Of a stretch of DNA of 64,000 bases, positions 9-48,300 are shown in pieces. The translations under genes were made by a program, and so were the position numbers. The first letter of the stretch is position 1. Every line of letters starts with the position of its first letter. The notes under the pieces were generated by a model that saw only the letters and a program-made list of their open reading frames with translations, had not been told where the DNA came from and searched no databases. The DNA comes from Aradus depressus (lineage: Eukaryota > Arthropoda > Insecta > Hemiptera > Aradidae), in contig OY759215.1 of assembly GCA_963662175.1 (NCBI GenBank), positions 13,629,079 to 13,693,078 on the forward strand, read 5' to 3'.

Positions 9-3000
9 CTCATTTTTCATGCCTTCAGTTGGATATCAGTTGTTCTTGTTCACCGTTTAAATTCTGCTATTGAATATATTTATTTTTTCGATTCCTTTTT
101 ACTAACAAGTACTGTACTATGATGTACCTCGTTAAAGACGGCCATTATCTAAACCTTGTTTTGTATTTTCTGATTTTTTACTGCCAATATTCCTGACGTT
201 TAATGATTCATTTTAATTATTTTATATTTCACCTCGTTACATTCTAATCAATTCTAAATTATATTTATTTTCCGTTTTAAAAATAAAATAAAACTATTTT
301 TCGAAAATTCGTGCCAAAATGAATGAAATTGAAGAATTTCAATCGCTGCTAAATTCAACGCAGTGTCATCTGAGTGGTAATTTTTCATTTTTTGTCACTT
401 TTTTTCCTTTTAACTTGCACGATAAAATTGAAAAATGTAATCTATAATTCATTTCACGCCAAAAATATCCCTTTGTATCGCCTACAACCTAGTTATTTTG
501 CATTGTTTACTCTCCCTTCGTTTTCGATGGGGAACTAACTTTTCTATTACTCTCCAACATACAAAGCCAAGTTATGGCTCCAGTGAAAGGTATGTTAGGG
601 GTGATTTCCTATCTGTCCTCCGCTATCATGTCAAATTTTGCTTTCAAAATCACTGTTTCAAAATTGTTTTTTTTTTTTTTTTTTTTTTTCGACAAATACT
701 ATGTGAAGGAATATGTAACTTTAGAAGGAAATCGAGGTTCTGTCGTGTAAAAGAAAATGCAAAATTTGGCCAACGTTTCGAAAACTATTTATTTTCTTCT
801 TCAGGGCCTTATAATGACGAGTGGATGTGTGTGGTCCACGTCCATCACCACACACATACACTCAAGTCATTATAAGGACCTGAAGAAGAAAATAAATAGT
901 TTTCGAAACGTTGGCCAAATTTTGCATTTTCTTTTACACGACAGAACCTCGATTTCCTTCTACATTGAAAAGATATTGTCGACTCTATTAATCAATATGC
1001 AACTACATGTATACCTAGTGTGCGCAGTTCACTAACGGGCTTACTATCAATCTTTATTATATTTTACTTATTTTTACATACAACTAAATAACACAATATT
1101 GTTCTAACAGATTTGTTTTGTTGTATACAGAGGATGACTGTTCTGTGATCGACCTGTCCAGTCAGTTTGATGTAATGGGAGACACATCCTTCACCCACAT
1201 GCAAGAGGATCTGGACCAACAGAGGCTACTTGGAGAGAGACACGTTCCAACAATAGACCCCTTCATCGCCAAGGAGATACACAATCGAGAGAGGTATTTA
1301 CCTAGTCATTGTCATAGAATCGAAGGACTTGCTCCAATAGAGTAACAAGTCCATACCTTTGGCGCTAAATGAGTGTTTCGATGTTGATTGAATAATGTTG
1401 CGCATGCATATCAAATCTACGATAGTTCATTAAAAAAATAATAAAATAAAAATATACTTGTATTTTTTTAATGAATGTCAGAAACAAATCAATTTTTTTT
1501 ATTTCATAATTAGGTATTAGTTCATAAAATCCATTTTGAAAAGGCTTCACCCTCATAAGACCACGTTTTTCAAATTATATGTTGTCTGTAAATTGACCAC
1601 TTGAGATAATAAGGCATTTAGTGATGTGTTAAAGCTTATTGATTGGAGAATTTATTGTGAAATTTGACAAGTTATGAGTGTAAATTTAGTGATAAATTTT
1701 TGTCTTGAAAAATGTATGTCGTAACGTAAGAAGTAGCTGTTTTTTTTTTTTTTTTTTTTCATTCTTTCAATAGTTGTTTGGCACACGTTAAGGCTTCAGA
1801 CACTTGAATAAAGAATTTTTATAGGACATTCTACGAGCTTTCGGATGGTGGTATCAAAAATACGTTTAGAGGGAAGGGTAGCTGAGTAAAAGTGATTTAT
1901 TAACCAAAAATCAACCAAAGACCAAAGTCAACCTGAATTCAAAGGCCATGGTTTAGGACATTTTGCTAAATCGGCCAGTGGGAAGGGGGGAGAGGGAGGG
2001 GGATTATGGGAAAGGCTCAACTCAAAAACCTCAATAACTGCCGATGTAATGAACGTATCCACATGAAATTTCATATTTGAAGTCAAAACCCAATGAAGGA
2101 CATAACGTGTCAAATTTCAGCGATTCTGGCCGAAGGGAAGGGGGCTTAATTCAAAAACTCTAATAACTGCCGATGTAAAGAATTTATCGACGCAAAATGT
2201 ATTATGAGGATTATAGGAGCCCCTATGTAAGTAAATTATTGAATATTAGCGCAAACGGTCGACTGGTTCTGAAGCGGGAGCAAAAACATTAATTGATTAA
2301 TTCGTTCTGGGGAAGTAATTCACCGACAACTTAATTTATGGTTTCCAGATTTACTTTGTGAAGCTCCATTCTAGGAATAGATAATTAAAATGCACAATTT
2401 CTTTGTCAAACTCCACTATATATTCTCAAAGACTCAACTTGTTTCGCCGTGTTAAGGCATTATCAAGAGTTTGTAAGTGACTCTTGATAATGCCTTAACA
2501 CGGCGAAACTAGTTGAGTATTTGAGAATATATAGTGGAGTTTGACAAAGAAATTGTGCATTTTAATTATCTATACCGACAACTTATTTTGTTCGTCTTGA
2601 GGGGAACTATTAGCCCTTAAAAATGTTCACACTGACTACCATTCACCCTATAAAAGGCAAACGTCATCTACACACTCACTGATTCAATTCAGAGATCTAT
2701 AATTATGAAATTTCACTGTGCACACAAAATCAAAATTTTGCCGTCATTCCCGATTTTTTAAATTAAAGTGACGAGGATTATTCTGCATAAATTATTCAGT
2801 TCTCCCAACCATGCCTACATATCCGATATACAGCACAATATGTTGTAACAAAGTTATTCACGGGCAACGCCAGGTGAACCTGCTTGTTCTATTTAAAGAG
2901 GTTTTTCGCGCTTATCTGTAGAGTGGTAGGGAGGTTTGTACTTCATTTGTTTAGAAGTTCTTTTTATTGAAGTAGTTCTGGTATTTGCCAATAGATTCCA

Positions 3001-12000: not shown

Positions 12001-15000
12001 TCGATTTAGAGTCTTCAACTTAATTTCATGTTTACCGACCTCCACATTCCAAATATGTAATATATTTCTGTCAACAAAATAACTCCCGATAGAATGAATT
12101 TATTGATACGAAATTTTTTTGTGAATCCAAAATCCTCCTAATGACGACAGCTAATAATTTTCAGCCAAATCGACCAAAGGAAAGGGGGGATTAAGGGGGA
12201 GAGGCTTAACTCAAAAACTCTAATAATTGACAAATATACAAACTATTCATAACTAGACCTGACGATGGTATGAGGCCGAAACCGGTAATTTTATAAATAT
12301 CTTTAGTGGAATAGACAATATTTCAAAAAATAAGTTTGTTTTATTTATTTATTACAAATTCCACAATATGTCCGCGCCGCGTTCCTAAACTTAGAAGTTG
12401 TTAATAATTGACGTTGTAATGAATGTATCGACACAAAATTTCATATGTGGATTCAAAACCCCATAAGGACGACACTTATTAATTTTCAATGGAAAGAAAG
12501 GGGAATCAGAGGGGGGCGGACTCAATTCATAAATTTTAATAATTGTCAATGCCCCTTTATAAATCAACTATTGAATAATAGCGCGCAAATGGTAGACTGG
12601 TTTTGGAGAGGGAGCGAAAAGTAATTGATTAATTCGCTTTGGGGAAGTACATTGCCGGTGATTCACCGACCACTTTTTATTTTTATTTTGTGTTATTTTT
12701 CTTTTATAAAAACATTTAACAAAAACTTCCTCAAATTTTTCCTTAAGACATATTTTCTCATGGAAAGATGGTATCTTCTCTCATCTAAAGCTGTCTTTAA
12801 TTAAAAACCATCCATGAAGTAGTGATTCACTCAGATTGAGTGGGGATCGTGGGAACTGAACACAATTGTCTGTTAATCTTTAAGACTGTGTCGTATTATC
12901 CTAATTTTTTTTAAATAAACTTAATGTAACTTTATATCAGAGCTCGGCAGCCCACACCTCGCGACCCCCATGATCCTCTTATGCGACTCGCGAGGTGTCA
13001 GTTTTTTTTGTTTTTTTGGTTCTAAGCAAGAAATTCGATTTAATTTGCAAAAACAATTAGATATATACAGTCTCTTGTCTAGGGTCCTTCTAACTACTTT
13101 AGCTCACTGCTAGAAACTCTAGTGGATTCATACGACTTGCACTTGAATAGGTATTCACCGTGTAATGCAGTGCAAGAAGGTTGACGTTGTTTTTTTCTCA
13201 TATCAGCCAGTTTTGTGAGGTCATTAGGTCATATGAAATATTCGTGGAGCGGCGGGATCCCAGCACAAGACCCTGGAGGTTCCCTGCCGAGCACAAGGGA
13301 CAAGAGAAACATGGCACAACCCGTCTTTTTTTCTTGTAAAAGATATATCATTGATATTGGCAAGGCCTGATGAGCGACTGTCCACTGCCACTAAAGCTCG
13401 GGACTGATCAGAATTCCTTGAGTTCTGTGTTGTCTGGGGCTTATTTATATAAGCAAATTTAAATTAATGTAAGCCCTCTGCATGAATCTGGAATGCTTTC
13501 AGCTTTCAAATTTGACAATTGTAGTTTGATCTTTACACGACTTCAATGCATGAACGAGAGCTAACCTTTCCAGTGCAAAAATCATTATTCTGCAATATGC
13601 AGCTAGCTCATTAATCCTACACAAGAGAGGTTTTCTACAAGGAAGTTCGAGAAAAGGCTACATGAATTAGACGAAAATTATATATACACTTGATATTCTT
13701 AATACACATACGATACCCTTCATTGTGTGATCTGATCACGTTTGTTGAATATGTTACACTTTTCGTTTATTGCTTTTCATTTACATATGCAGGTGGAACT
13801 CCTTATCTACCTCAAATCGAGCTCCAACTGGTTAACTATGCACTGGTTTTGCGGTACATCTTTAATATTTTTCTTCGATTTGCCTATGGAAAAAATATAT
13901 GTAAATCAGTGGCGGATTTAGCAGGTTAGCCATTAAGCATTGGCTGACCGGTCCCCCCTTAGCAATTGCCCTATGGACCCCTCTCACCAAATGATATTTC
14001 AAATGTTTTAGACTATTTAAACTCAATCGCTGAATACAAGGAATGAGTTCATAGATTTTCGACGTGCTGCAATGACTGGAGAAACACTAGATGATTACAG
14101 TATTCTCTACATAGAACGAAATGTTGCCAACCTAAATTGACTTGAATACCACAATTGAATTATTTGCTGAGCGAAAAGCAAGAAGAGGATTAAAAATTTC
14201 ATAAAGATTCTCATTGCTATTTTGTAGACAAACAAAATGTTAGCTTTGTTTTTTAAATCAATGAAATAAATGTATTTTACAATCAAACATATATTTTTTC
14301 CCATATCATGTATAAAGACTGTGATAAAACAAATTCAAATTGTATGTCCTTTGGACGTACGGGGCCCCGCAGAGCTTTTGCTGACCGGGCCTTTTTCTTT
14401 AAATCCACCATTGATGTTAATGTTATTTGGTCTTGTTCCAGATGTTTGATGCATCCGCTTTGTAAAGTGGAAGCCCGCGTTCAAATCACAACTGTTTATT
14501 TTTAATATATAAATCACTTAGATTGAATATATCGACATGTAATTTTATACAAGGACCCAGTAGTCTTTATCAGTGAGAATGAAGTTATTTATCCCAAAAA
14601 GGTGATTTCCTGTTCTCTGTAAAGCCGATCTCTCCTTCTCTTCAGCCGATCTAGATGAAAATGAATTGTCTTACGTATGGATTACATATAAAGTTTCCGT
14701 TTTCGATTTAGGGGGGCCGGTAGACAAATAATTTCTCTAAAAAATCTACATCGAATTTTGAACCTATTTCATAACTTCTTTTATACTATGGTACTTCTAC
14801 GTATAGCACAGGAAATAGAAGGAATCTAAAGATTTCCAGCTAAAACAGAGATTGGAGGAAAAAGGACGTACTATGAACGTGGATACCTGAAATGATAATA
14901 TTTCCTTCAAAACAAAGGAAAACATGAGCTCTGAACTTGATATAGTTGAGAAATATTTACGTAGAAATGTGTACAATTTCCTCGTTAAGCTGCTGAAGAG

Positions 15001-18000: not shown

Positions 18001-21000
18001 CCAGGACATAACAACACTTGTAGATTTTCAAGGGAATCAGTGAGTTGACTTCTAAGGGATAACGAAAACTTGATGATTAATTTACCATGGGAGCATTCAC
18101 AGGTTCATTAAGGAAACTGGGAGACTGAGGACTTCATGAAGGGCTTGTTTTAGGCAGTATAAACAAACAGGTAATAAAGTAATGTGGAAGCCCAGCGCTT
18201 TCAGGGAAGGGATTAGAGTATTGGATGCTTAGGTCCATAGGTGTAAAACACCAGTCCACCACCATATATATATATGAAGAGCAAACATTCAAACCGTGTT
18301 TTCTCCAAAAAAAGAAAAAAAATGAGTTAGTGATTTTTCTTTGAACTCAACATTAAATGGTACAAAAATGTACTATTATTTTCAACCAAAACAAGTTTTA
18401 TCCCATTATAAACCTATTTAGAAAATTCAGGTTTCATTCCAAAAGTGTTTCCTCCAGAGCCAGTTTTCAGTCAAACAGTGATTCCTCCAGCCAGCCAATC
18501 AGAGCTTGTTGTTACTGCTCACATGACACAGCTATTACCTGTGTTTCTAGTGTTTCAGAGGATATGTTATTGTTTGTTTGGTGCTATGTTGGTTTGTTTA
18601 TTTTAGGGCGGTGTGCATTTACCTAAGTTTTTATTAGTTATTAATTTAGGAATGGAAGAAATAATAGATGGTGTATTAGTGAGCACTGGAAATTGTGGGA
18701 CGATTTTTCACTTATAAATTTTTTACTTTATTTTATAATTACATAATCAGTTTTGTTCTGTTAATAATTAGTTTTATTCCATTAGGAAATGTTATAGTAA
18801 CAATATGTGAGTTCCAATCTTTTTCATTCATAAAGTGTTTTATCCACATTGGAAACATTCAAAACATGTTTCCTCCTCTGAGTTCGGTCAAAACGTGATT
18901 TCTCCAAATTTCAAATGAATTTTCTTAATTAATTTCAAGTTCATTAGGTAAAGTACGCCTACAAATCTTCCTAGAAACCAGTAATACAACTAAACAAACT
19001 ATAATTAGGGTCTAAAACAAGTTATTTCTTAATTTATTAGTTTTTTTGTGTTTCCTGAAACATTGTATCCGAAGGAGAAAACATGGTTTGAATGTTTGCT
19101 CCTCATATAGCGATTAATTTACACTGTGGAAGTAGGTACATTACCAGTGATTCATCAACGTCTTTTTATGTTTAATTGATGGGAGATATGATAACAGGAT
19201 TTCTTCCAGGAGCGCTAGTAAATACTTGTTACAAACTGGAAGTTCATTGAAAATGACTGATGTTGCATTATTGGATCGAAAGTTAAATGATTTATTATTA
19301 TTTTGACTCCGTGAACTGCGTGAGGTGTAACAGAGGTCTGCCACCTGACAATAGCGTGCCCCTTTTCTGTCGATCACGCAAGACAACAAGGATCACGGTA
19401 GGTACTAAAAGCACGTGTCTTTAAAACATTTTTTTTTTATGTTCGTGCGTCGTTATGTGCGTCTTTTCCGAAAGGATAAAACAAAATCTCAAAGTAACGG
19501 AAGTAGCGTTACGGAGGTAACGCAATATAACATAACGTGACGCTATCTATACTCCCGGAGAGAGAAACAATAACTCATTGAAAAAAAAAGAAAAACATGT
19601 TTTTTTTTTAAATATTGTCCATTTCACAAAATATATATAATATATGGGAGTAGTACGTTCACTTTCTCTTCCATCTTCAGCCACTACTTAACAAATACTA
19701 AGTGCAATTACAACAAGTTCACATTCCGAACTGTCCCTTCTCTGGTTTTTCCCTGTTCCTGCACAGAAAGGACAGTGAAGAAGAGGCGTGAATTGGACCC
19801 GACATCGTCGGAAAAAAGTGGAATATGGAATATTTACGGAAAATATGGAAGATCATGGATTCCAAAGAAGCCTAGCTTAACAGTATGTGTTATATCGTTT
19901 GTTGTTATGATTTAACACCACTTAGTATGCGCAGGACGGACCACTGTGACTTCGTATGAACGTGAATAAAGTTACACATTAACATGCGATTGTTAAAATA
20001 TTTTTGTATGTTTTACTTGACCGGTTTCAATGAAGCAACGTTTATCGTAATTGTCTGGTTGAACAGTTTCGTTGATTACAAACAAGGTCATGAATAACGC
20101 GGATTTATTTACACGTATCTATCACATTAACTCGATAACAATGCAGTTAATTATACGTAAATAAATGTATACTCTCGAATAGCTCGTTTTACTTCAAACA
20201 CAAAAACGATCTTGGGCAAGCCATAGATGCATAGAATTAATTATCTGCCAAGAGAGAGGGCGCCGGTAGCTCAGAGGTAGCCTGCTTGCCTATTGAGCTC
20301 AAGATCGCGGGTTCAAAACCCATTCGAAGCTCTTAGGTTTTTTATCTGGAATGGAAAAAAAAAAACCTTGAGCACTCTGTTCTTCGGATGGGACCTTAAG
20401 CCATGGTCCCGAGCTGATGTCAGGTGCTCGTTAAAATCCCTCGGTGAATAAACCTGGGTAGGTAACATTTTCGACTCCCAGAGTTGAGTCGTGCTCAGTC
20501 CACCAGAGCGACGAAAGAGCGCTCTGGTAGTAGGCGATACGACCTCGTAGTCAAAGCCTGGACATGAGTCGTAATAACTAACTTATTCTACCAAGAGTTC
20601 AATTTTTACACCGAAGTCAAGTGATCTTCATTTTCGTCGTGTTTCGGGCCAAAATCTAATCATATCTAAGTTAGCACCTCTGACATCTCAAATTTCATTA
20701 GTTCAAGTTCATTATTCCGTGTTTAGAGCGCTCACAATGTTTCAATCAAATACTCAGACGTAGAGACTTCACCGCGAAAATAGTCAAAACCTTTTCAGGG
20801 GACCTTAAAATGTAAAATTCCGTTGAAAACTGATCTCATATTTTTGTACAATTACGATACTTCCTTATCCTAAAATTATAAGATAATAAAAATGAAATAT
20901 TCTCAACAAACAAGGAAGAAATTATACAAACAGTGTATTGTAAAGGTAATAAAATGTATAATAGTGTGTTTGGACATGGGTGGTAATGTTGAGATGAGCT

Positions 21001-24000: not shown

Positions 24001-27000
24001 TATATGAGAGATGAAAAACCTGGAGCATGCCATGCTTCGGATAGAACGTTAAGCGATGGTCCCGAGCCTGTACGATAACAGGTATTCGTCAAAGACCCCT
24101 AGGTGAATAAACATTTAGGGTAGACAAAATCACAGTTCCCAAAAACAAAACTTCCATCGGACTGTGTTTCTTCGTTCTCTTCTAGAGTCTAAACGGCTAG
24201 ACCTATTTTCATACACATTCCCTGGTGGATAACTCATTTATCGTGAGGTAGGGTATATAACACTCTCGGCAAGGTTGTATCTGGGGCTGGGTTAGTGGCA
24301 CAATCAAATATTGAACTAATTTTGACCAGATTTTTACTATAGGATAGCTCATTTATCTATGAGTGACATGAGGTATATAACACGTTTGTGCCTGGTGTTA
24401 TTAATAATCAACATTGAGCACGTCGTCTTTCGGATGGGACGTTAAGAGTTGTTCCGGGCCTGTGCGATATCAGGTACTCGTTTTAAGACCCTTACCCTAC
24501 ATAACTAAACCTGGGTTGAAGAAAAATTTAGGACTGCCGCAGTATAGTTGGGCTTATATTCACCAGAGCGATGAAGTAGGCGATACGACCTCGTAGTTAA
24601 GGTACAGACATGAGACACTAAAACAAACAACTAATTGTTGACCTACAGAATCCTTGAGTACGTGACCTAGTCACACTTCTCTGGAATATTTTACTTCTCC
24701 AGCTAGACGAAGTAATCGGTCAGAAATTCGAAGTTGTGTTTTCTCCGGAATTTCATGTTTTCTGACACCTTGATTTCAGAAATTAAAATGTTTGTCTATG
24801 TGTGGGTGTGTCTGTGAACACGTTAACTGTCGATAGAATGTATGTATCGACATGAAATTTTATACGTGTATCCAGAACATCATAACAACGTCATTTATAG
24901 ATGTTTAACCGAATCGGCCAATGGGAAGTCAGGGATTAGGGGAGAGGGTTAACACAACTCTAATAACTGCCGTTATAATGAATGTATTGACAAAAAATTT
25001 CATAAGTAGATTCAAAACTCCATGAGGGCAGTTATTAATTTTCCGAAAAATCGGCTAAGGGAAGGGGAATCGGGGGAGGTGGCTCTACTCAAACCCTAAT
25101 AAATGCCGATGTAACGAATTTATCGACACAACATTTAATATGAGGATTCAGAACCCTTATGTAAGTCAGTTATGGGTTTTTAGCCTAAACAGACAACTGG
25201 TTTTGGAGGGGGAGCGAAAAAATTGATTCACCGAATACTCTTTTGTTGTAAACCAATTTACTGATGGATAAGTTATTAATTATTTTTGTAATAGTTCAGT
25301 TGCTATTGTATCCGTTCACTCTTTTCGGATACTTCATCAAAATACGACATTTCCTTCCCCTTACAATATTTATGGCGAATTCCTGTATGACAGCACGGGG
25401 GTGCTTTTTATCTTACTCTATACATAGTCTTCTTAGTCAGCCCTCCTGATGACCTTAGACGTTTATACATCCTGAAGTTTAAATTAGAACAAATAACTTA
25501 AAACTTACAGTGACCATTACTTATCTCATCAAGATATTTTGGGCTACCCGGGGACACATTTTTTTTATAAGCGCCCCTCCCTCAAGTCGAAAACTATTTT
25601 CTTTTCGTACATTTACTAAAGAAATAAAATTAGTTGGTAACCTGGATGTGGTCACTCCTTCATTATATTATTTAACATAGTAATTCTGCCAGAATTTTAT
25701 ATTTCGTACATCAAAAGTTTAATAAGATATTGTCTTTGTTTTTTACGGTGTTAATAAAAAAAACATTTCGTCATATAGACAATGGGTAATTAATTGTATG
25801 GCAGGCAAAGAACCTACAATTTGAGCTAAAAATCATTAATCCACATACTAAATTTTGAGTCGACAAATTTATTACATCGGCAGTTATTAGGATATTTGAG
25901 TTGAGCCCTCTCTGATCCCTTCCTGCCCTTCGGCAGATCCCGCTGAAAATTAATAAGTGTTCAATTCAAATTAATCAGTGTTTAAGAAATTTTAAATTTA
26001 AATATCAAATATAGTGTCAATACATTCATTACAACAACAATTTTGTACTCCCAAAGTAGAGACGGACTTCATGTCTACCAGTGACGAAAGAGCGTTCTGG
26101 TAGTAGGCGATATGACCTTTTAGTTTAAGTCCGGGCATGAGTCATAATAACTAGGTAACTAACAACAGCAGTTATTAGATTTAATGTTTTGATATTAGAA
26201 ATGTATTTAGATAACTCATATCGCATTGCTCTTGTAACATCACTAACTGGGTGATGTGTTATTCGCTTTAATCTCTTGAACTGGGATTTTTTTTTAGCAG
26301 ATATATAATGGAAATTCGTGTGATGGCTAGGTTGTTTAGTGACTATGGGAACAGCTAAATGGCACCAAAACTACCCAGAATACGAGTTGAGATAACTCCA
26401 TAAAAAATTAATTATCCGTTAAGCTTCCGTTAATTTTCGTTAAATATCAGGATTCAGATGCCTCTATACCTAGCCGCTGATTTACCAACCACTTTTTTAC
26501 TTTTAATACAAAGCTCTGAATTTAGTCCGAATTCTGAGTCAGAAAATTTGTTTACAGCCCTTATCATCTAGCTACGTAGGAAAACAACACTTTCATCTAC
26601 TATTAACTTTCTATTTCATTTTCATCAGTTACATGCACTGATGTATGATAAGAGCCGAACTAACATAACGTCCGCTTTCTGAACATCCTCGTTCGTCTCG
26701 ACTCGGCAGCCGGACCACTCAATGTTTTACAGTTTCTGAACTTTACAATCCTTGACTTATTTTATTTTTGGGTGAGGCAGCAGCCTCAGCTATCGTTTGA
26801 CAGTGTAGTATCGTTCTCGAATAACCGGATAGGAAGAAACTCGGAATAGCTTCATTGCGCCGACTAGAACTTTATACCATACCAGCCCACAGAGGATGAT
26901 TCAAGGCATGTGTAGGGAGGCGGGAAGTGGGGGCTCATTTATGAGAAAAGTTAGTTGAAACTGACTATTCTCTTTTGTGATGCTTAGTACTCCCATATTT

Positions 27001-30000
27001 TATATATATTTTGTGAAAGACACAATATTTTTTTTTTTAACATAGATTTTTTTTTGTATACTCTATTCTCGGAGATGATCTGGGAAATGACACCTCAGAG
27101 AGTACAGGGCCCCGCCTACTCTTAAAAGTTAAATTATTCGCAGTTTGACCTTACTTAGTAAACTCTAAAATTGGTGACCCCAATGTGATTTGAACAGGCA
27201 ACCTTCTTATGTGGTATAAGTTCAAGGACGTAAGTTTGTTTCGGCTCTGTGAGCGACGAGAGTAAGAACCACAGTTCATCATCCGCAAAGGGTTGATATT
27301 GATATAAGGGTGCAATAAAACCCTGAAGACGGCGGTTCGATATCATGATAACCACCCCAGCTGGACCGATTGTACAGTTTTGTTGAAATGGTCTTATGGT
27401 TGGCAAAGAGATTGAATTATAAGCAAGAAATAGTCCAAGAATGCTTCATTCTTGTATTGTAAACATTTTTAGAAAGGTGTGTGACGCGTCAAGTAAACAA
27501 CCAGTACCGAATCTATTTCCAACCGAATCTCTCTAAAATTAGAAGTAAATATATTCGTAAATTTAACCATCATCTTCCCGGCCTTTAAAAATATTGAAAA
27601 AAAAATGTTTATTTTTGGCGCGGGGTGAAATTTTCCTTCGAAGTGATAGCTGGTACTTGAGACAGATTAACCCATAAACATAGTTCCTTCTGTTTACATT
27701 TATTTACGTACATTTCTATTGAGTGATTCATCTCATCTGCTTGGAAAACCTCTAAATTTAGACAATTTTATTTTTGACATATTTTACTTCATAATCTAGG
27801 TGGGGGTGGGGGGGGGGGGGGGGGGGGACTTATACAATGTGTCATAAATTCAATGTTGAGTTTTCAACGTTTCATACTTTTCGACCCCTCTCAAAATGAA
27901 TTAATCAATTATTAACTTTTTGCTCCCCACCCAAAAAGAATAAACACTCCCTATGGAATACATTTTACGAAGCCAAATTTTATATGTGGAATAAATCTCT
28001 GACAGGGACACTTATTGAATTTTAACCAAGTCGACCGAAGAAGCTACTACAGCGAAAAAAGTCGCTTACTATTTATTCGGGCTAGGAAATTGTGTTTTTT
28101 TTAGCGTTGGAACGAAATCCATGAACCAACTTACTTTTTACTGTGTCTAGCTGGTCCCTGATACTCCAACGTGTCCCTTGACCTCTTCTCTAGTAAGATT
28201 CACCACCTGAAGATGGCAAATTGCCGAAACTAGTTGTGGTAAAAATAAAAAAATATGTTGGACTGATAAATCTAATTACTTATTTAACAAGTTAGTCCAC
28301 TACATCTGCTTACCACTAAGTAATATACTTTTTACTCTATCCTACAGAACTCTTCCAAAATACTGTTCAATCACTTGCTGAATTTTTGATGGCAGTAATT
28401 GTGCTTGATCTGGCGCCTCAAAGAGGGGAATCTAATACCCAGCTCTCCAATAAAAAAATAATAATTATAATAAGAAAAATCTTTCCATGTTTTGATGAAC
28501 TTACGAAGCCACTACAAAATAGGAATGTAGAAAAGGTTTGGTAGGAAAGGCGAGAGCAAAACACTGAAGGATTGGTGTCTGGTGGGCGACTAGTTAAGGG
28601 AGGTTCTGCAGGGGGGAGTGCAGACTGCAGAGCCAAATGTTCCAGGAAGTGTGTCTGTGAACAAGGAACTCCTGATAGAATGAATGTATCGGCACGAAAT
28701 TGTATAAGTGTATCTAGAACCCCATAAGAACGACACCTATTGATTTTCAGCGAAATCAACCAAAGAGAAGGAGGTCAGAGGAGGGAGGCTCGACTCAAAA
28801 ACCTTATAACTGCCGCCATAATGAATGTATCGACATGAAATTTAGTATGAGGATTCAGAAGCCACTATGCATGTCAACTATTGATTTTGAGCCTAAACGG
28901 TCCATTGTTTTTTGGAGGGAGAACGAAAGCGTAATTGATTAATTCTTTCTGGGGAAGTACATTGCCGGGAATTCACTAACGATTTTTTTTCATGTAAAAA
29001 ATAAATTGAAAAAAATTGTCCTTAAGTCCGTCCATGAGCATATTGAATATGGATGAGGAGAAAGGGAGGGGGGCATCAGAGAGTAAAAAAACTTTTCATA
29101 ACGTCATACTTTAGGTTACTCTCTATCTCTGACAAAGTATGATGATATGAAAAGTTTTTTTATTCTCTGGTGCCTCCCCCCCCCCCCTCCCCCCCCCCCC
29201 CATCCCTGACCTTGAAATCTATTTTCAGGGGCTCCCCTCTACGCCGCTGAATGCCTAGACAATTTCGACTGGAGGAAGCTTCCAATTTGATCGCCTGCAG
29301 GAACATAGGGGCGGATAATGAATTGAAGTTGATTCTAGCTCAAGGCAAACCTCCTGGTTGAATATGCGCTGTTTGGTCCTGTTCAGTAGAGGTCGCCTGC
29401 CCGCCCTCCTGTCAGCACTCCCTGCCAGTCAGCCATTGTTAGCCAGCCTTATCTACAAACTAGCAGGTTGCCCGGGAGTAACTTTCTACGTTATATTAGT
29501 TTTCCTCAACCTGATTATGTGCCATAACCGGACAAAGAATTCAAACATTATCCTCCGCTATCCCCACTCCTATCTCTCGGCTTCTTCGCTACTCATCGTT
29601 TATCTGAGTTATTTTACTTTCTCAGCTATACGATATATAAGGAGAAGTTATGTAATCGGTCAAAAATTCGATGCGATGTTTTCAACAGAATTTCTCATGT
29701 TTTCCGACCTCCCGATTCCAAATAAGAAAAAAAAAACCTCACAGTCAGTGTCAGTGTTTCCTCGCCAGGGTTTAGTTAGGGTAGGTGTCTTAAAAGCGTG
29801 CCTGACATCACACAGGGACAGCCTTTCAATAACTCCAACGGACGGCGTCCTGAAGGTTTTGGTCAAGTTTGAACCCGGAAGGCTCTCAACCTCTGTGCTA
29901 TCTGCGCATACTGTAAATATCTTGCTATGTCTGAATTGATTGTTTCATCTTGACGAGAAGGGAGGAGGTGGCGATCCGCATGTGGTCCACTATCCATCTT

Positions 30001-33000
30001 GAGACTGACTGAGGTCACTCCACTCCCTGAGATCAGAGGACGGTGAAGGTCTCTTCCCTATTTTTGAATTGTTATCACACTATTTGCCCCTAAGACTTGA
30101 AATTCCACAAAAAGCATCTTCATGGCCCGCACATAGAAAAATGTCCACGTTTTCAACGGAATTTCACGTTTCAAGTTCCTCTGAACAAGTTTTGACTATT
30201 TTCACATCTGTTTGTCTATGTGTATATGATTGGAACCTTGTGAGGGCTGTAACTCAAAAACTATTGTAGTGATGAACTTGAAATTTAGCTAGTTTCGAAC
30301 GAGAATTAAGGTCACTTTACATCGGGTTCTAAGTACATTTTACAAGATACTGCTTATATTTAAGAATTATTTAAAAATCTCTTCCTTAAATGAAATTCCA
30401 AACGCCTAGGTGTGCTCAAATTTGTGACAGGATCAATACTATCAAAGTTATAGCGCCAAGAAAATATATTTCCCTAGGAAATATTTCAAAGTAGTTTAAA
30501 TTGTAACGCATAGCAACGAATTAAAAAAAATCTTTATTAGTAGTCTTGAGGGAGCCGGTACCTCAGTAGTATGCTTGCTTGCCTTCTGAGCTCAAGATCG
30601 TGGGTTCGAAACCCGGTCGAGGCCCTTAGTTTATTTTATCTGGGAGGTAAAATAAACTTAAGCACGCCGTCCTTCGGATGGGACATTAAGCGATGGTCCC
30701 TCGAGCCTGTACGATGTCAGATACTCGTTAAAGACCCCTGGTCTAGGTGAATAAAAATTTAGGGTAGGCAAAATTTAGGACTCCCATAGTAGAGTCGGGC
30801 TCATTGTTCATCAGAGTGACGAAAGAGCGCTCTGGTAGTAGGCGATATGACCTTGTAGTTGAAGCCTGGGCATGAGTCATAATAACTAACTATTAGTAAT
30901 CTTTTTTTAATTTTTTATGACATTCTTATATCAATCACTTTTTTACAGATCGTTCTCCCTCCCTCTCCCCTTCACAAATTAATTTCAAACTGGCATTACT
31001 GGGAATAAATAAATTATTCTCAGAATTACACTGTACATTGTAATAAAGGAAACTACTGACCAGGATACGTTTCTGATTACAGTAACCTCTCGAAAAAACA
31101 GTGAGAATATTATTAAATTTGAGGAACCTTGACCCAGTAGATGAGAACTTGTACTTTTTGGTTATGGTGCAGGTTTATCAAGGTCTTCTGATATGTCAGC
31201 TGTATTTTGTAATATCATATGAACAATGCTGTTAACCTCGTCGTTCTGGTGTTCATTTCTTAATGGAACAAGAAAAAAATCTTATAGAAAAAAAAAAAAA
31301 AAAAAAAAAAGTGGAAAATCAATATGACCAACCTCGAGATATAGCGAAGTGGGACACACCTTATCAAATCAATAATTTGAACCGTGGCACATCCATCATC
31401 TTGAACAAATCAGAATTAAGTTTTAGTTGGTTGAATCTTCCGATTAACTAACCGTTATTTGACTTTATTAAAAAATAATCATCGTTGCTATTTATCTATA
31501 TATTATCCACTTCTAGTTTTCCTTAGCTCCCATAGATTGGTACTTGGCGTAAGGTAATTTAATTTGAGATAAACATCATCTTTTTCAAACAATAAAACTA
31601 TTTTTTTTAAGATTGTCGTTTCTACAAAAATGTAAAAGTTATACAAAAACTACCGGTTTTTCTAAATTTGAGTAGATTTATAATTAAACATGACGATAGT
31701 GTAATACCGAAACTGGTATCTTTTGTATACGATGTTTTTATGGACAATATTTCAAAAAAGAAGTTTGTTTTATTTATTACAAGTTTTCACAATATGACCG
31801 CGTTTCCATTTACACTATGGTAAATGTTGCACTAATAACCAATTATATTATATTTAAAGGCTTTTGAAAACATTAAATAATGATAGGTTAATACATTTTC
31901 GAATTTGTTCAAGTAACAGAACTCAAAAAAAAGGTACGATTGATTTTCCTTACGTCATTTTGAGAGAATCATGTGAAAGTTCTAAAAAGTGAATTTTCAT
32001 AATTTACTCGCTATATCCTTTAAATTGATACTTCCATATGACTACTGTTTCAATGTTGACGCTGCGCGAACGTGAAGAATATTTCGACGATCATGTCAGA
32101 ATAATTTGAAATGTTCAATTTCACTCTTATTTCCTCTCGTTTCTGTTCTGCAAGTTTTGATTGTTTCATTTACTTGGGGCCATTGGAGAAATGTTGTACA
32201 AGTTCGCTGCCGTCTCCCTAGCAACCGATTCGCGCCGCATTGGTCCAAGCTATATTGTTTTTTTTTTTTTTAATTGGCTACAACTTGTTTTTGACCAATT
32301 TTTGATGCTCTTTCATCTGTTAACCTACTCAATTGCCCTTGGTTATCATGTTCCCTAGTGGAAATTTAGACGACTTGTTCAAGGTTAGATTTTGGGTTAG
32401 TTTTCCTTAAAGTTTCGGTACTAATACCATTAGATAAATAATAAAAAGAATTAATAACGAAATAAATAAAAGGGGTCCTATGCAATGACATCCTACGATG
32501 GGGAGGATGCACAGACCGGTTCTAATCAGTTTAGTCCCGCCTGTGTTAATCTGTGTCAGTTTGGTCGGCCATTGTATTGAGTTAAATCCAGATTAGTTCC
32601 GTGCCTACGTCCGCTTACCTCCTGCACCCCCTCAGCGTTCCTTACCCAGGAGACATCGCAGGGAGTATATATAGTCCCATATGAAAATTAATGCTACCTT
32701 TTTTATACTAATTTCAAAAATTCGAACGTTACTTGCTAAAAAACTCAAAAAATAAGTATTTTATTCACAAGATTGTGTTACATTAACTAAATTCAAATTA
32801 TCTCTTAACTCTGAACTCCAGTTTTTCTAAAGTCTGGAAGTTTCGATGAAATGTCGTTAACGTCGGTCAGTTGTTAGAATGACTAAGAGTTCTACTAGTG
32901 ATGAAATGTTATAGAAACTAGTTTTACATCAACAGAAATACTAAAATAATAAGAAACATTGGCAACCCGGCTTCTATGTACAATATTATCAAAATGTGAA

Positions 33001-36000
33001 CAATAACATAGAAAACCCATCCAATAAACGATATTTCGAATAGAAAATATAAGATAAGGTTACAAATGGAACATACTCCGGGTAATAGGCAGGCTATTAG
33101 TGAGTACATGACATAAACTTTTGATAAATGTTCGGTGGAAGGCTCGATGGGGTTGGTCAGTTATTAGATCATCCTAGATAGTTTTCTAATAGTAACAAAG
33201 TTTTAAAAACTACTTTTACATATATAGAAATACTAAAATAACTAAAAACATTGAGAAACCGTCTTCTAAATAATTCTAAAAAGGTAAAAAATATCAACTA
33301 TGAACCTGCCTATAATCGGTATTTCAAATACAAGCAAATAAGACAAACTTACTTCAGGTCATAGATTGATTATCAGTGAATACATGACATAACCTTCTGA
33401 TAAAAATAGAGATCTATTGAGTTTCTAACAATAACATTAGTTGGCAGAAATGGAATGCATTCACCATAAAGATAGCAACAGAGATGTGACATCAAAGATG
33501 GCTCCCATCCCCTCCCCGGAAGCGGCATGCTTCCTCCTTGCTATGCCTTACTTTAAACTGGATTCGAAGGTTTACATTTTTTCACATTATACGCAATATC
33601 CCGATTTCCTTGGAGAATCCCATCATTTATCCAAGTCTCTAAATTCTTCTACGATCCTACCTATTTCTTGACCGCTATTGTTACAATAAAAAAAATTAAA
33701 TTCATCTTAAAATCTTAGGGGTTAGTTCCGCCAGTAAATATGTTATTGTTGTCATACCTTTCGGTGGAAACCGTCATCACTGGCTGCTGATCGAGTACTA
33801 TGGGCGAGCGCTTTCGATGGTGGCTTGAAGATGATGTTTTCACATCGCGAAAGCGCTCGCCCACAGTACTCGACCAGCAGCCAGTGACGACGGTTTCCAC
33901 CGAAAGGTATGACAACGACAACAGCAACTAAAATTGTTTTATGTTAGAGAAAATAATCTCAGGTTCGAAACCCGATCGAGTTCCTTATGTTTTTGTTATC
34001 TGTAGTTGAGTAAGCAAAAGTTAGGACTCCCACAGTGGAATTGGGCTCATGTCCAACAGAGCGATGAAAGAGCTCTCTGACACTACCAGCCTACTAGACG
34101 ATATGATCTCGTAGTTAGAGCCCGGGCATGAACTACAATAACTAACTAGATTGTTTTCTCCCCCTGTTGTGGGGCGAAAATTAATGGGTAACAAAAACAA
34201 TATATTTTGAGTAGGATCACATGAAAGCTTACTGAAAGTAGTATGGAGTATATATTTTTTTCCAAAATTGTAATTACATAAAACGGGTCAAAAAGCAGTT
34301 TCACAATATAGGGTGGTTACAAACAGCATTCTCTACATTTTTTTGTTACTTTCATTCTGTGTCCAATTAAGGCATGTATCATGTTATTAATTTGCTGTGT
34401 AATCTGTCTCCTTTTTTGTCTCTGGGTAGACACTCCCCTTCTATCTAATCTGGAGATCCTGAGTCAGTAGAAAGAGCCATTTCTTTATATAAATTTTATT
34501 ATCTCACATATTGTAAAATTACCATTGCTGTAAAATGATATTAATAAATAATAAGTCAAAAATTGTTGAAAATATTTTTTGCTTTTCGTCGAAAACTGTA
34601 AATGTTAACCGCATTTGTTTGCTTGTTTATCTGTCCCCCCTGATATCTTTGAAACTATTGAAGCTACATATATACCTGAAACTTTTCAAAAAATAGGGGT
34701 GATATTATTTCAGAATGGCATATTTATTAATATGTAGATGAGTGAACATTATTCAGGTAGGGAACTCTACAATATATAACCACATCACGTTGACTATATT
34801 ATGTGACGTTTGTGTTTCAGGTACGACAGACTCCTAAGACGTGCCAAAACTGAAGACCTCTCAGAAGTGTCCGGGATTGGCTGTCTGTATCAGAGTGGTT
34901 ATGATCGTTCTGGTCGTCCTGTTATTGTATTTGTTGGCAAATGGTTCAAGTTTAAAGAAATTAATTTGGACAAAGTAAGTACCATTGTTTGTAAAAAAAA
35001 AAAAAAAAAAATCAGAATGTACCTGCGTAAAACATGTCAAAAAATATATGTGATATGGCCATTAAACAGACATTCTAATACCAATCACACTTACAGGTCT
35101 CTGTCTCTCTCTCTCTCTTCCCCTCTCCTTTCTCAAAATCATTTCATACTGGTATTATACAGTCTGTAAGCGTGGTTGGTGTAAGAAATGAAATCCTATA
35201 ATGACATAAAATATATGTGATAGTGGTCGTGTGATATTTGTTGCTATGCGATACAATTTAAACATTATTTTGAAATATTTCCTGCGGAAAAATATTTTTC
35301 ATCGTCTGCGGCGCTGTAGCATTTGTCATATTGATCCTATCTGAAATCTGAGGACCTATTAGCGAGTGGGAATTTGATTTGGAACATTTTTGGTAAGAAT
35401 ACATATCGAAATAGGACTAACCGTTTTCGGGTAAATCGAGGAAATGTCAAAAAATATGTGGTTCAAAACTACATTTCATGGACGGTTTTCGGCTGTATCT
35501 CGAAAACTGGACGACCAGCGAAAAATCGTATTTAATATGTATTTCAGTTTTCTTTACTATTATCACTTGAAAAGATTTTTGATTTGGTCATAAAAATAAG
35601 TGGTATCATTTAAAATGCAATTAGGTCCCGGGGGAAAGTGGTCTTAATTTTCGTCAGATTTCGGCCTAAACCTAATCAGATCTAAGTTAGCGCATGTGAC
35701 CTCTTCATTCCAAATTTCAAGTTCATAGCTACAATCGTTTTTGTGGTCGAGGACTCACAACTTTCCAATCAAGTATACACACGCACAGTCAGGCGTCATC
35801 GCGAAAATGGTCAAATGGGATCTTGAAACATGAAAATCTTTTGAAACCTCGATCTCGGATTTTCGCAGGATTACAATACTTTCTTATACTATAGGTATAA
35901 TAAAGTGAAAGACGTATAGCATCACCATTTGTTCGAGACTTATAATAAACTATTACTCATTCGTCTGTTCATTATCTTTTTATCAATTTAAAGCTTTGTT

Positions 36001-39000
36001 TGCGTTAACAATAGAATTTATGATAGTGTAAAAGTTTTTTGTTATTCATGTACTGAAATTTACATGAATCAGAATTGTTGGGTCAAAACTAGTAATCTTG
36101 TGAAAGACCCGTTTTTAGGACTAATGACGTATATTGCACTAAAGTTTACTCACTCATTTGTAAAATTTTGTCTAGCGCAAATTTTAGTACACAACAGATC
36201 AAAACATTCCGACGGAACACTTTGCGTCGGGATATTTCATCACACCATTTTTGTTTACCGCTAAAGCAATCACGACGAAGAATAGAGCATGAATCACCCT
36301 CTGGACTGAGTTCTGTTTACACGTTAATTTGTATGTTTTTCTAGATCAGTGCCGTTTTAGTTACAAACTGCAAACTAACTTTTACTTACCACGAAGCATA
36401 GGGGAAGTTATGTAATCGGTCAAAAATTCGATGCGCAGTTTTGAAAGAGTTTCATGTTTTCCAACCTCCAGATTGCAAACATGTAAAAAAAAATTCTGTC
36501 TGTGTCTATGAACTCGTTAACTCCCGATAGAATGAATCAATATGAAATCCAGAATCATGTAACGACGACCGCTATTAATTTTCAGCCAAATCGTCCAAAG
36601 GGAAGGGGGTGATTAGGGAAGAGGCTTAACTCAAAAACTGTAATATCTGCCATTGTAATGATTGTATCGACATGAAATTTCATATTTAAAGTCAAAACCC
36701 AATGAGGACATAACCTGTCAAATTTCAGCAAAGTGTGCTGAATGGAAGGGGAGTTCAGGGGTGGGGGCAATTAAAAAAAACCAATATCTGGCGATGTAAT
36801 GTTATTGACACAAAATTTAATATGAGAATTTAGGAGCCGCTATGTAAGTCACCTGTTGAATATTAGTGCAAACGGTCGACTGATTTTGACGGGGGAAAAC
36901 GTTAATTAATTAATTCTTCTGGGTAAATGCATTGCTAATGATTCACCGATGTCTTTTTTGTATGGTTACCCTAATTCAACGGACTTCCTCTCGTTATTTT
37001 CTCTCTGCCATATGTTCCATCTGGTGATATCTATGAGCTACTCAAGGCATATTTTTATAAAAACTTCCTGGCGGAACAGAACAAAATAAGAAAAACAAAA
37101 TTGTATAAACTTGGGATGGGTAATGCGCCGTTTTCTGTTTCAAGTGCGTTTGATGTTACGGTGCGTGGTGGTCACCGAAATACTAATAACATCAACACAA
37201 CTGAGCCAAAATAAACGTTCCTCGACTTGTTTATCAGCCAATTTATCCCTCTTTCTCTCTCTCTCTCTCTCGTTCATTACTTTGTACGTGGCGTAATTCG
37301 TAAATTTAAAATTTTTGAAAATCCTTAACATTCTTTATTATTCCATAATTAACGCAGTATCAAATATATTTCAGAATCATTGTTGTTAATATTCAACAAT
37401 AACTATAAACAAATAAGAATAATAGTCTATTCATGAATTTCGTTTTTGTATAAATAAATTTAAATTAGTAAAAAAAATTCTTATTGAACGAATTGAACAT
37501 ATCGATGATGGAAAGCCAATACCGTCTATCTGCCTTTTTTTTTTTTCATTATTGAAAGGGATTTTTTTTTTACCTTCTCTAAAAATGTGGCAACACTGAG
37601 TTTGGTAGAAGGTTGTAAAACTGTTGCCTTCCAATACCAACTTTCCAAACTTGTTTATATTTTGTAATAATACCTTCTATCTTTGTGTGAAAATACCAAT
37701 GAAAATACAGATAGAAGGTATTGGCTTTCTACCATCGATATATTAATTTACTGGGAGCTGCAATAAACAGTTGAGGAAAAGTTAGTAGTTTCTATTCAGG
37801 AAAAAAAAAAAAAAAAAAAAAAGTAACAATTTAATGAACTAATTACGTAATTAAAAAGTAGTCGATGAATCACAGCCATGTATTTCCCCAGCTCGAATTA
37901 ATCAATTAGGTTTTTGTTCTCTCTTTAAAATAAATCGAACATTTTGTCTAAACATTTATAGTTGACATACACTAGGACTTCTGAAACGACATACTTAACT
38001 TCGTGTTGATATATTCATTTTATCAGTTAGACGCACACATAACTTCTCTTATACGAAGTATAACTGGGGAAGTAAGTAAAAATGGGTTTCATGAAATAGC
38101 TGAGTACATTCAAACATTTCTTATGAGTTATACACTCCATAACTCGAAAGTTATCGTGGGTAATAATAATAAAAAATTTATTTCCGTTAAAACAATACAT
38201 GGTAATAGGATACGTCAAAAGAATTTATACAATAAGATAGTAAATTAGATTTATAACTATTTGAGTCTAACACATCTATGATTAGTAGTAATAACAAAAC
38301 TATTAAAAAAAGTAAAATGAAATTAATAAAAACTTAACAAATAAATACTTAAAAATATATGAGTACATAAACAAAATTAATACATGATACTTTTATAATA
38401 AGTAGACACATTTTTCAATTTAATAAAAATTAATATAACTATTAAAAAAAAAAAAAACTCTTCGGAAGTTTTTTTATCCCAACGATGTTTCGGGACGTTC
38501 TTACGTCCCATCATCAGGTCCCAATGTTGCGAGATATAGAAAAGAAAGAAAACAATGTAACTATAACAATATATGAAAAAGAATATATATATATATATAG
38601 ATTAATCAATTATAAATGAATTTATATAAAAGTCTAAATAAATAAATACATTATAAATGAATAAATAAAACAATAACGTACATTGGACTCACCTTTAAGA
38701 TGTGGACGAACTTCTGTGGAGGAACTCTGCCCCGGGTATCGTATCTTCAGTAAAAGAAATGAAAAGAGGAATTTATTTTCTTGCAAATAAGTTTTGAAGG
38801 GTTTAGTTTTGTTCAATTTTGTCGTTATTAACTTCAATGTTGATCATACAAGTGCTACAAGCGCAAATAAGTGAAAAATAGAGTATTTGCGCTTTATAGT
38901 ATTTTTTATTTATTTCTTCTTCTATTAGACCAAGGCCCTCATTGCTGAAGTTTTATCAATATATGTTGAGTTGAAATAAACGGATCCGTGTACTTATTAA

Positions 39001-44979: not shown

Positions 44980-45376
44980 ACTTCCGCACACCTATACGAA
45001 GTAAGGGGGAAGTTATGTTATCAGTCATGAAATTTCATATTGAGTTTTCACAGAAATTTCATTTTATCCGACAAAATAAAATTGGCAGTGTGTGAATGAA
45101 TACGATTACTTTTAATAAAATGAATGTATCCACACGAAATGCGTATCCAGAACTCTCTAAAGACGACACTGATTGAATTTCAGCCAATTCGGCCGGAAAA
45201 CGGGAAATAAATTCAAAGCCCCATAAGGACGTCACCTATTAATTTTCGGTGAAATCATCCAAAGCGAAGGGGGATCAGAGAAGGAAGATAAAATTTAGTA
45301 TGTGATGATTCAGAAGCCACTGTGTAAGTCAAATATTGAGTTTTAGCCCAAACAGTCGATTGATTCACCGACGACT
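44980..45376 (+). repeat. ACTTCCCC-family repeat, shortened
   Basis: From ACTTCCGCACACCTATACGA to GATTCACCGACGACTT, with one internal unit. Confidence 0.75.
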
Positions 45377-48300
45377 TATTATCACAGTTTTTATCACTAT
45401 GCCAGTTCATTAGTTTAATATCGTTTAATATTTAAAAATGTAGGGGTTTGAATCGGGATCTTAATCCAAGTTCTGCATTGGCAGTGTATGCTAAAGAAAG
45501 TAATGATGTAATCGTTGGTTGAAAGAAAAAAAGTGTACATTTTGGGACAAGCTTGGCCCATCCGTCTAGACTTATAACTGCCCAGCCACTTCTACCGAGA
45601 TTTAAATTTCAGTTTCTAACGGCAAAGTAATTAAAGTTTTTAGTTCGTTAATTATCAATTCATAATTGTTTGCCTCACAATGAAAGAAGGAAGGGATCTT
45701 TGTCAGTCTGTTCGGGAGTGTTTTGTCAGTCTGTTCGGGAGTGTTCGTTCGGTTTGGTCTGTTCTGGTGTCTCTTGTCCATCCTGGAGAGAGCAATGGCT
45801 TGTATCTGGTTGAGTGTGATGTAGCATATGTCTGTCCTCTTCAGCTGAAGCTGAAGAATATATCAATTTATTTATATTAGTTTAAAGTTACTATCCGGGT
45901 AACCTGAGGAAGGCAAAAAAAATTCATCATCTTCATTTTGACGGGTATCTTGTGCTGACACGAACGAACCATTTCTTGCTAAACTAAGTATATATATATT
46001 TTGGATGAAGCCGTTGAAGTGGTGCTTATTTACTCTCCCCCTCGGCACGCGCGATGTCCAGGCCAACAATGAAAAGCTTATAAGGATGCTGCTACTTATG
46101 AAATTTTATCAAAATCTGTTCATTAAACAACCAGTATTCATTTTGTTTTGGAACCCCTCTCCCGTTCCACATTTTGAGATGCCACATAGCATATATTGTA
46201 AGTATATACTGAAATGCCCTGCGTTTCATGAATATACGTTTAACTGTTTGAAGGGCTATCACTCATTTTATGTTTCACCCCCCCTCCCCCCCCCCACAAT
46301 TCCCCCTCCCTTTTGAAATGTTAAAGATACCCCATGGCCTATTTTCTAAGTTGGACGTTCCTAGAAAAGCCCTTCAAATTTCCTCAATATACGTTCAGTC
46401 ATTTTATCGTGAGAAGATCAAACAAACCTACGTACAGACAGAAATTGAACTAAATATAACATGAATGGATTTATGATCAAACAAAAACAAACATTCCGTC
46501 AATGTACAGTCAAAACTTAAATTTTAAACATATAGATTCTATTTAGAGGCCACATTTTTGAAACCAAAACATAAGAGTTGAAACCTTAAAAAAATAGATT
46601 TGTATATTTACAGTTATTATTTAGCTTAATCTACAAATATAATATTGTTTTCTCTCTCCGGAGGGGAGTTGAGAACACCTCTCACAAATTTCGCACCATT
46701 CCACTATCACAATGTTCTTTTTCTTGTGTATTATTTTATAACGCTGTGCATGGAAGTCGTTTCAAAAAAATGAAAGCAGACTATGTTAGAATTTTGTTGA
46801 ATCATTGCTCAAAAAATATAATAAAAACATAAACTTTTGTTTATTCAAAACACTATCAAAGGATATGCATGAGTTAGTTGATTTGACATGGAATGAACTT
46901 GAAGAATAACGTTTATGAATCGCAGGAATTTTAATGTTTTTTTTATATGATCTTTTGCGAAGCTGTGTGTATCAATCTAAGGGTAAAATATTACAATGAT
47001 TCTAAATTAGAGTATGGTTTAATTGATTTAGTCAGTTTACATTAAGTTTTTATTGTTAAAAACTGAATAAAATATTCAATAATTTTGCCGTTACCGTGTA
47101 AATGTTTTCCTTTATTTCCTATGTTCTTTCTGACTTCTGGATGCCATTGGCTGTTTTCCTACCAGTTTTCTTGACGATATTTCGTTGCGATCCCGCTCTC
47201 CTTCTTCAGGGCCCAAAGAAACAGTCAACTGTCTACCTGAAGAAGAAATTTCATTGCCCCAAAATATTGTCAAAAAAAATGTATGTTACCTTTGAGAAAC
47301 TAACCAATGCCATTTAAACAATTTCTTTTTATGGTCATACAATACTTGGACTCAATGTTGGGCACCACAAAGTCAGGGGTAAACTATTGTTTGTTTGGGC
47401 TCTGAAGACTAGGATTAGTCATTTAGCATAAAAAGAAATAATCCTGGTGTAAAAATAATGATTGTCGATAACATTTTCTTTTTATATTTATATTTTTTAT
47501 TTACACTAATACTTACTATTCCTTTTGAATAGTAATACTGCACTTGTTATTCTGTTTTTATATTATTCTTACTTATTATGTTATTACTCTCCTTATTACT
47601 CGTTCGACACTCAACACTTTATTCCTTTTTGAAGTATAGGAAAATCGTTCCTTTTTTTAATTCTCTTTCAAATATTACTCCTTTTTGTCCCTAAGAGATT
47701 TATCTTACTCTTGAGTTGTTAAAACTTTTAAAATAAAATATAATGATTAAAATTGAAAAAAAAAAAACAAAAAAAAACTTCAAATGTATTCTTGTTTTTA
47801 TTGGAGGCCAGTATTTTGTAGAATTAATGTTCCGCAATGTTGTACACCCTCAATCCGTTTTCAGTTGGTAGTACATAAAGTTGCTTTGTCTTTAAATGTT
47901 TACATGACAATGATGATTTTAATAATGAATTTTTGGGAGCAGAAATATCTTTTTTTTTATGAAATAAATTTTCGTAAAAAGTTTTTAAAAAAAAATTAAT
48001 TCAAACATAATAAGAATATTTTTAAAACATGGGCAATAAGAACCAATTTAAAAATTTGTTTCTTTACACGTCTATACTTAGTCTATGCGTAAAGTCAACT
48101 TAAACTGCTTTCGTTATTGTACGTGTTTTAAAAAGGATGTAAGAAGGAGACTTTTGAATAGAGCGGTATTCCAGTCATTAAGATTTTCCATTTTATATTA
48201 TTACTATTTTTTTTTAAATATTTGTCCGTGTGTGGTTATTATTTTTTTAAATTAATTCACTTTGAAATGTTCAGATATTTCTACCCCTGAAATTTTTTTT

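Follow-up and report, generated by a model that had tools for sequence, protein, structure and literature searches.

The 64,000-nt stretch of the Aradus depressus genome analysed here (contig OY759215.1 of assembly GCA_963662175.1, positions 13,629,079 to 13,693,078 of the forward strand; hereafter the window, in whose own coordinates all positions are given) very probably holds remnants of several families of Penelope-like elements (PLEs). Most are 5'-truncated pseudo-long terminal repeats (pLTRs) with a tail, and many carry a minimal hammerhead ribozyme (HHR). The window contains palindromes, tails on one side, target duplications around part of the copies, an excess of HHR-like motifs, pairing kept between families and a palindromic helix III. 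We interpret the copies as PLE pLTRs because head-to-head pairs, a one-sided tail, duplications and a dimer-type HHR fit the published anatomy. This kind of remnant, the PLE pLTR with a minimal dimeric hammerhead, is already known; the fresh part is the footprint of insertion, in arm starts, tails and duplications.

Each motif consists of a helix I strand, CUGANGA, one base, helix II, GAA, helix III, H17 and the second helix I strand, with 3–5 bp in helix I. The conserved core (CUGANGA ... GAA A ... U H) is present in the window sites and has decayed in some copies, to TTGATAA in family C and to CTGATAA at 39936. Helix III is a self-complementary 4- to 6-mer with no room for a loop, exact in five of the six typed families, family F excepted. 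Its letters are ACGU, ACUAGU or ACCGGU; read by eye, family J has AGCGCU and a single fragment of family G has AGUACU. The ATGT at 39936 and the ACAT of family F look like CpG decay. As background, a self-complementary A..T stretch stands between GAA and H in 83 of 310 cases for 4-mers and 34 of 286 for 6-mers in the window. Since a self-complementary stretch of 4 or 6 nt cannot form a hairpin, the core closes only between two molecules or repeats; judged from these letters, assembly of the ribozyme would need two RNAs or two repeats, and the motifs are predicted to self-cleave. The single base between CUGANGA and helix II, which a first-pass annotation of this DNA had correctly noted, is U in five of six typed families, giving GAUGG with an AUG at stem II in what we take to be a good start context. 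Families D and E have a stop soon after this AUG, so those copies are non-coding.

Motif numbers exceeded chance expectation. The loose pattern CTGANGA..GAAA..TH matched 41 times in the window (many of the matches being nested) and 10.1 times in shuffled sequence. A broader structural descriptor of core and helices gave a weaker signal: it found 11 sites, whereas random sequences averaged 2.5 and one of the 60 reached 12. Demanding 3 bp or more in helix II left 10 sites, where chance gave 1.2 (maximum 4). Our strict descriptor combined the core with a helix II of 3 bp or more and a self-complementary helix III (A..T, 4 or 6 bases), leaving helix I free. It returned seven sites (804-, 880+, 2484+, 6282+, 7611-, 12259+ and 28207+), where 200 first-order Markov sequences gave a mean of 0.23 and a maximum of 3; the helix III filter was picked post hoc from the same window and the seven sites represent five families, hence not seven independent events, so that the excess serves as an indication and is not a clean test. 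Although it was not demanded, a helix I of 3 bp or more was present in five of the seven (0.005 expected). Relaxing helix III to any A..T gave 17 matches against 1.65 in random sequence (maximum 8), eight with helix I against 0.075. As a negative control, 2.9 million viral contigs of IMG/VR were searched for the core, GG..CC and GAAACNNGT. Among the 30 loci recovered, helix I reached 3 bp in none, and helix III was self-complementary in three; the same pattern fits three window sites, two of them with helix I.

Helices I and II pair across all six typed families despite their different letters. With the exact window letters, 18 of 18 helix I pairs and 18 of 18 inner helix II positions match, and for each helix two of the 720 possible re-pairings of strands do as well; this test is partly circular, as pairing helped to choose the sites, and the fairer figure is the five of seven strict sites with an unrequired helix I. 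The helix I stems that the first-pass annotation had named at 768, 2480, 7605 minus, 19674 minus (a decayed copy) and 28202 are all present, as are its helix II variants GAAAA/TTTTC, GGCA/TGCC, GGGACG/CGTCCC and GATGT/ACATC. It was right that a hammerhead-like motif recurs above chance in several families of short retroelement copies, with a kept core and helices that vary while still pairing. The compensating change it described is one between families. The sites it named exist, and several of its dozen copies are decayed by eye (4562+, 19680-, 31690+, 39785- and a pair near 47.2 kb). The families are unrelated in part, with families D and G sharing a recognisable 3' tail.

Head-to-head inverted pairing, a feature of PLE pLTRs, is found in the window. 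Comparison of the window with itself showed an HHR core whose helix II fits, in at least one outward arm, for seven of the 20 inverted pairs listed: B, C, P3, P4, P5, P7 and J33. Arm alignments were made for 11 palindromes (these seven with P8, P9, D31 and H47), and in all of them the 3' ends point outward.

Four palindromes are flanked by target duplications. The family B palindrome (722..962) has arms at 722-835 (minus) and 847-962 (plus). Its HHR-like motif at 772..804 (-) has helix I GGCC/GGCC and helix III ACGT, and in the second-arm motif at 880..912 (+) helix I is broken by one change. A left duplication copy at 710..720 (AATATGTAACT) matches its partner at 994-1004 (AATATGCAACT) at 10 of 11 positions, with a 31-nt offset that corresponds to a tail at 963-993 on the right arm. 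The family C palindrome (2377..2573; arms 2377-2470 minus and 2480-2573 plus) has a motif at 2484..2514 (+) with the TTGATAA core, helix I ACTC/GAGT and helix III ACTAGT, mirrored at 2466-2436 minus with helix III ACAAGT. Its duplication ACCGACAACTTA at 2322..2333 has an exact partner at 2574-2585, and the tail (2334-2376) is on the left arm. Family G palindrome P3 (4446..4658) has a left arm at 4446-4536 minus and a decayed HHR at 4562 plus in its right arm; the duplication GAATTAGATT lies at 4435-4444 and 4703-4712, and the tail at 4659-4702 on the right arm. The asymmetric family D palindrome P7 (7514..8164) has its motif at 7611-7583 minus, with helix I GAC/GTT, and a right arm that begins at GAAACCGG (8088). 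Here the duplication GTACATATTTTA is at 7504-7515 and 8210-8221, and the tail at 8165-8209 on the right arm.

The duplications flanking C, P3 and P7 are thus exact over 12, 10 and 12 bp, with one copy abutting one arm and the other 43-45 nt past the opposite arm. With B included, one copy of the duplication is always found no more than 2 nt from the arm that lacks the tail, and the tail, taken as the stretch from arm end to duplication, measures 31-45 nt. A duplication at this fixed tail geometry was found for four of the 11 palindromes and in 30 of 1500 random draws, the geometry having been set only after the four had been seen. For families D and G the tail was also recognised by its sequence (TTTCACAATATG..) in five of 13 aligned rows (12259+, 8088+, 31677+, 4561+ and 43150+), and it occurs on exactly one arm in P3, P7, P9 and D31. 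Together with B and C, whose one-sided tails are placed by the duplication offset, this makes six palindromes with a tail on one arm.

Among the other palindromes, family A is represented by P4 (6042..6327), with a motif at 6282-6310 plus (helix III ACGT) and a left arm in which the CTGATGA core is mostly lost, by the decayed P6 (17194..17439), and by P5 (39693..40032), with motifs at 39785-39757 minus and 39936-39964 plus. In the minus arm of P5, about 46 nt present in the plus arm are absent just upstream of the core, which removes helix I; they were perhaps lost between two CTGAT repeats. Family J palindrome J33 (33741..33923) carries a motif at 33825-33858 plus with helix III AGCGCT and helix II GATGT/ACATC (33833-33846), followed by two extra bases. 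Family G palindrome P9 (43115..43207) is truncated within its HHR and has its tail on the right arm; both it and P6 count as truncated or decayed. To these we added two tentative palindromes with weak arm alignments. The D-related D31 (31591..31774) has a left arm beginning at AAACCGGT, a tail on the right arm and a decayed HHR at 31690-31718 plus; the decayed H47 (47163..47281) has CCTGAAGAA on both arms. P8 has no recognisable HHR.

Copies outside palindromes include 12259+, 28207+, 38517- and 19680-. The family D copy at 12221..12412 (+) has a motif at 12259-12287 with helix I lost, between exact 11-bp duplications (TAATAATTGAC, 12221-12231 and 12402-12412); it lies inside a dispersed host repeat. 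The best kept motif (28207-28235, helix I ACCAC/GTGGT) belongs to the family E copy at 28132..28336 (+), likewise between exact 11-bp duplications (TACTTTTTACT, 28132-28142 and 28326-28336). A decayed HHR at 19680 with helix I TGG/CCA lies in a family G copy (19581..19699, -), and a further family G fragment (26985..27030, +) begins at helix III (AGTACT). Family F consists of a lone motif at 38484..38517 (-), with helix II GGGACGT/ACGTCCC and helix III ACAT, perhaps a decayed ACGT. No convincing duplication was found flanking the single copies of family F and at 19680. The host repeat that received the 12259 insertion, repeat D1, is abundant in its own right, with 12 copies (2033-2118, 9788-9873, 50516-50601 and others) that overlap repeat families D2 and D3.

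How might such copies arise? Target-primed reverse transcription would yield the single copies with their 10-12-bp target duplications, and priming of both target strands would yield head-to-head pairs with 3' ends outward and a tail on one arm, the arms being truncated independently and meeting in the middle of the palindrome. The published proposal of 2013 for head-to-head pairs is instead self-priming on an antisense template (PMC3846280). It concerns the same PLE insertions, and we consider it possible though doubtful. The near-identity of the two arms within B, C and P7, and the start of both arms of B and of C at the same base, are what it would lead one to expect. Against it, a self-primed second arm would be a copy of the first, whereas six palindromes have the tail on only one arm, and arm starts differ in P3, P7, P9, D31 and J33; moreover, extension of both strands by a PLE protein has been seen in vitro (PMC11167929). 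None of these points is decisive. Two-strand priming, our tentative reading, accounts for the layout more simply, predicting outward 3' ends, a single duplication, arm lengths independent of each other and different tail ends. A link between head-to-head pairs and two-strand priming was not found in the main-text section consulted of PMC11167929 or in the open-licence papers searched, and we claim no priority for it.

The points at which arms begin may hold further information. The shorter arm starts at GAAACC in P7, CGAAAG in J33, AAACCG in D31 and AATACCGAAA in P3; in these four of the 11 aligned palindromes, D31 being a weak case, the arm begins on the 3' side of stem II, at most about 7 nt from the base of that stem. 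Elsewhere arms begin at about the cleavage site (P9), at helix I (C), at the core (H47) or upstream of the HHR (B, P4, P5), and the start in P8 cannot be placed. A reverse transcriptase halting at an uncleaved ribozyme in its folded state would explain the four starts, which are few, and palindrome detection favours arms reaching that far. Extending this, helix III might have a dual role, completing the ribozyme between RNAs and also pairing two template RNAs, so that insertion on the two strands is coupled and head-to-head pairs result, with the shorter arm often ending at the base of stem II where the reverse transcriptase meets the folded, uncleaved ribozyme. We offer this as speculation that is more apt to prove wrong than right by a wide measure. 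If it were true, one could read from old genomic insertions that a ribozyme was folded in vivo on its template RNA. Stem II arm starts, if they hold genome-wide, would be in vivo evidence on whether the template RNA was folded and uncleaved.

Two other kinds of element deserve consideration. If the copies were foldback transposons or miniature inverted-repeat transposable elements (MITEs), the palindromes would be terminal inverted repeats, frequently with TA ends, that contain the core by chance. Long near-perfect palindromes, and symmetric TA ends on the arms of B, C and P8, suggested such a reading, which we rejected: in the four palindromes that have a duplication (B, C, P3 and P7), it is placed past a tail on one side and not directly at symmetric inverted termini or their TA. 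Single, non-palindromic copies with 11-bp duplications exist, 5' arm lengths are unequal while the 3' region is common, and the same core recurs in several families, all of which leaves a DNA transposon extremely improbable. Animal non-LTR retrozymes, small circular-RNA retroelements with type I HHRs, had been named in the first-pass annotation and seem to us very unlikely here. They share with the window copies the type I helix order, short length, low GC and lack of coding capacity (PMC7229834), and retrozymes and PLEs are reported to co-occur (PMC7761336). Retrozymes of animals are tandem repeats of about 150-450 bp with type I HHRs, canonical in invertebrates (PMC7229834), an arrangement not seen here: among the 20 of 45 direct repeat families listed, there were no tandem HHR-bounded units of 150-450 bp. 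The window copies are instead dispersed and mostly palindromic, with a tail on one arm, 10-12-bp duplications and a minimal HHR whose loop-free helix III would work in dimers only. The term non-autonomous, also used in that annotation, is fair for the present copies, no PLE protein having been found in 15 translated stretches of the window, and does not extend to a separate class; the copies are more simply 5'-truncated PLE insertions.

Several results count against assigning the copies to PLEs with dimeric hammerheads. In Pfam scans of 15 translated stretches, including 14 of the 225 window open reading frames (ORFs) of at least 55 aa, no reverse transcriptase or GIY-YIG domain was found, the sole match being a SET domain. 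The hammerhead covariance-model search suggested by the first-pass annotation left the Rfam hammerhead families unmatched in the window, both at gathering cut-offs and up to E=10, a search run with no positive control from a known PLE ribozyme. The dimeric hammerhead was never the lowest-energy dimer, another pairing being lower in five of five motifs, and was energetically better than two monomers in only two of the five. Helix III of family F (ACAT) is not self-complementary. For seven of the 11 palindromes (P4, P5, P8, P9, D31, J33 and H47) no target duplication was found; P5 carries the 3' tail extension on both arms; and D31, H47 and P9 depend on short or weak arm alignments. Other inverted pairs, such as those at 1426, 29064, 37491, 40419, 53442 and 61793, have no credible hammerhead, so a palindrome by itself is no marker of these elements.

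Some further features of the window and of the viral control were noted. The ORF at 54503-55312 (-) contains the SET domain (Pfam), with SETMAR (3bo5, E=2.9e-47) as its best solved relative, which by itself suggests animal DNA. A stop-to-stop ORF of 234 aa at 10510-11211 (-) had no Pfam match over the 233 aa scanned and is possibly a mobile-element protein. A tandem-like array at 6828-7104 is built of units TGGTTGTGTAGTTAGTGTTACT..CCTAGAGGGGCTT (repeat D12). At 29052-29195 there is a long inverted repeat between G/C runs, with no credible hammerhead and with weak matches to microRNA precursors under the gathering score. All Rfam microRNA matches were below that score and were set aside; they include long palindromes that mimic hairpin precursors. 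In the IMG/VR control, 11 of the 30 loci (L003, L005, L007, L010, L012, L014, L015, L017, L018, L020 and L021) share a nearly identical, recurrent hammerhead-like motif, gctgtccc-CTGATGA-tggctgttaggcc-GAAA-cgggta, on contigs that are probably from phage; L003 and L005, the two tested, were unmatched in Rfam.

The probable assignment to PLEs can be set against three published systems. In Penelope of Adineta vaga, pLTRs are inverted, most frequently head-to-head, with a 31-bp tail on one of them and, in some copies, 8-10-bp target duplications (PMC3846280). The window copies resemble these in being mostly head-to-head, in their palindromic junction, one-sided tail and AT-rich targets, and in the duplications around some copies. 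They differ in being much shorter, with no ORF found in them; the A. vaga pLTR study does not contain the word hammerhead. Minimal HHRs lacking helix III are known from pLTRs and may cleave as dimers (PMC7761336), and the double hammerhead is known for PLE variants (PMC6466107, PMC7761336). The very short helix III of the window motifs is like that of the small dimeric PLE HHRs of Lunse, Weinberg and Breaker 2017 (PMC7761336, PMC6466107). According to the review, eukaryotes need a tandem arrangement as well (PMC7761336), whereas the window pairs are inverted, so that a single transcript would carry one motif in sense and the other in antisense. The in vivo role of the PLE ribozyme is described as 'still a mystery' (PMC7761336). 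With this role and PLE transposition open, copies that keep tail, duplication and arm ends in a span of a few hundred bases allow the steps of insertion to be read directly. The third system is PAc, the Poseidon element of Anolis carolinensis. Its protein cuts an AT-rich target on both strands, extends each of them, and begins reverse transcription at two internal positions of the RNA, which bound the tail (PMC11167929). No cleavage by its HHR was seen without protein, and insertion in vitro persists when the HHR is mutated (PMC11167929). PAc is coding and in tandem, unlike the window copies, and the section consulted does not discuss head-to-head copies (PMC11167929). The two systems are alike in having a tail and an HHR with an AUG at stem II, the point at which the PAc ORF begins (PMC11167929).

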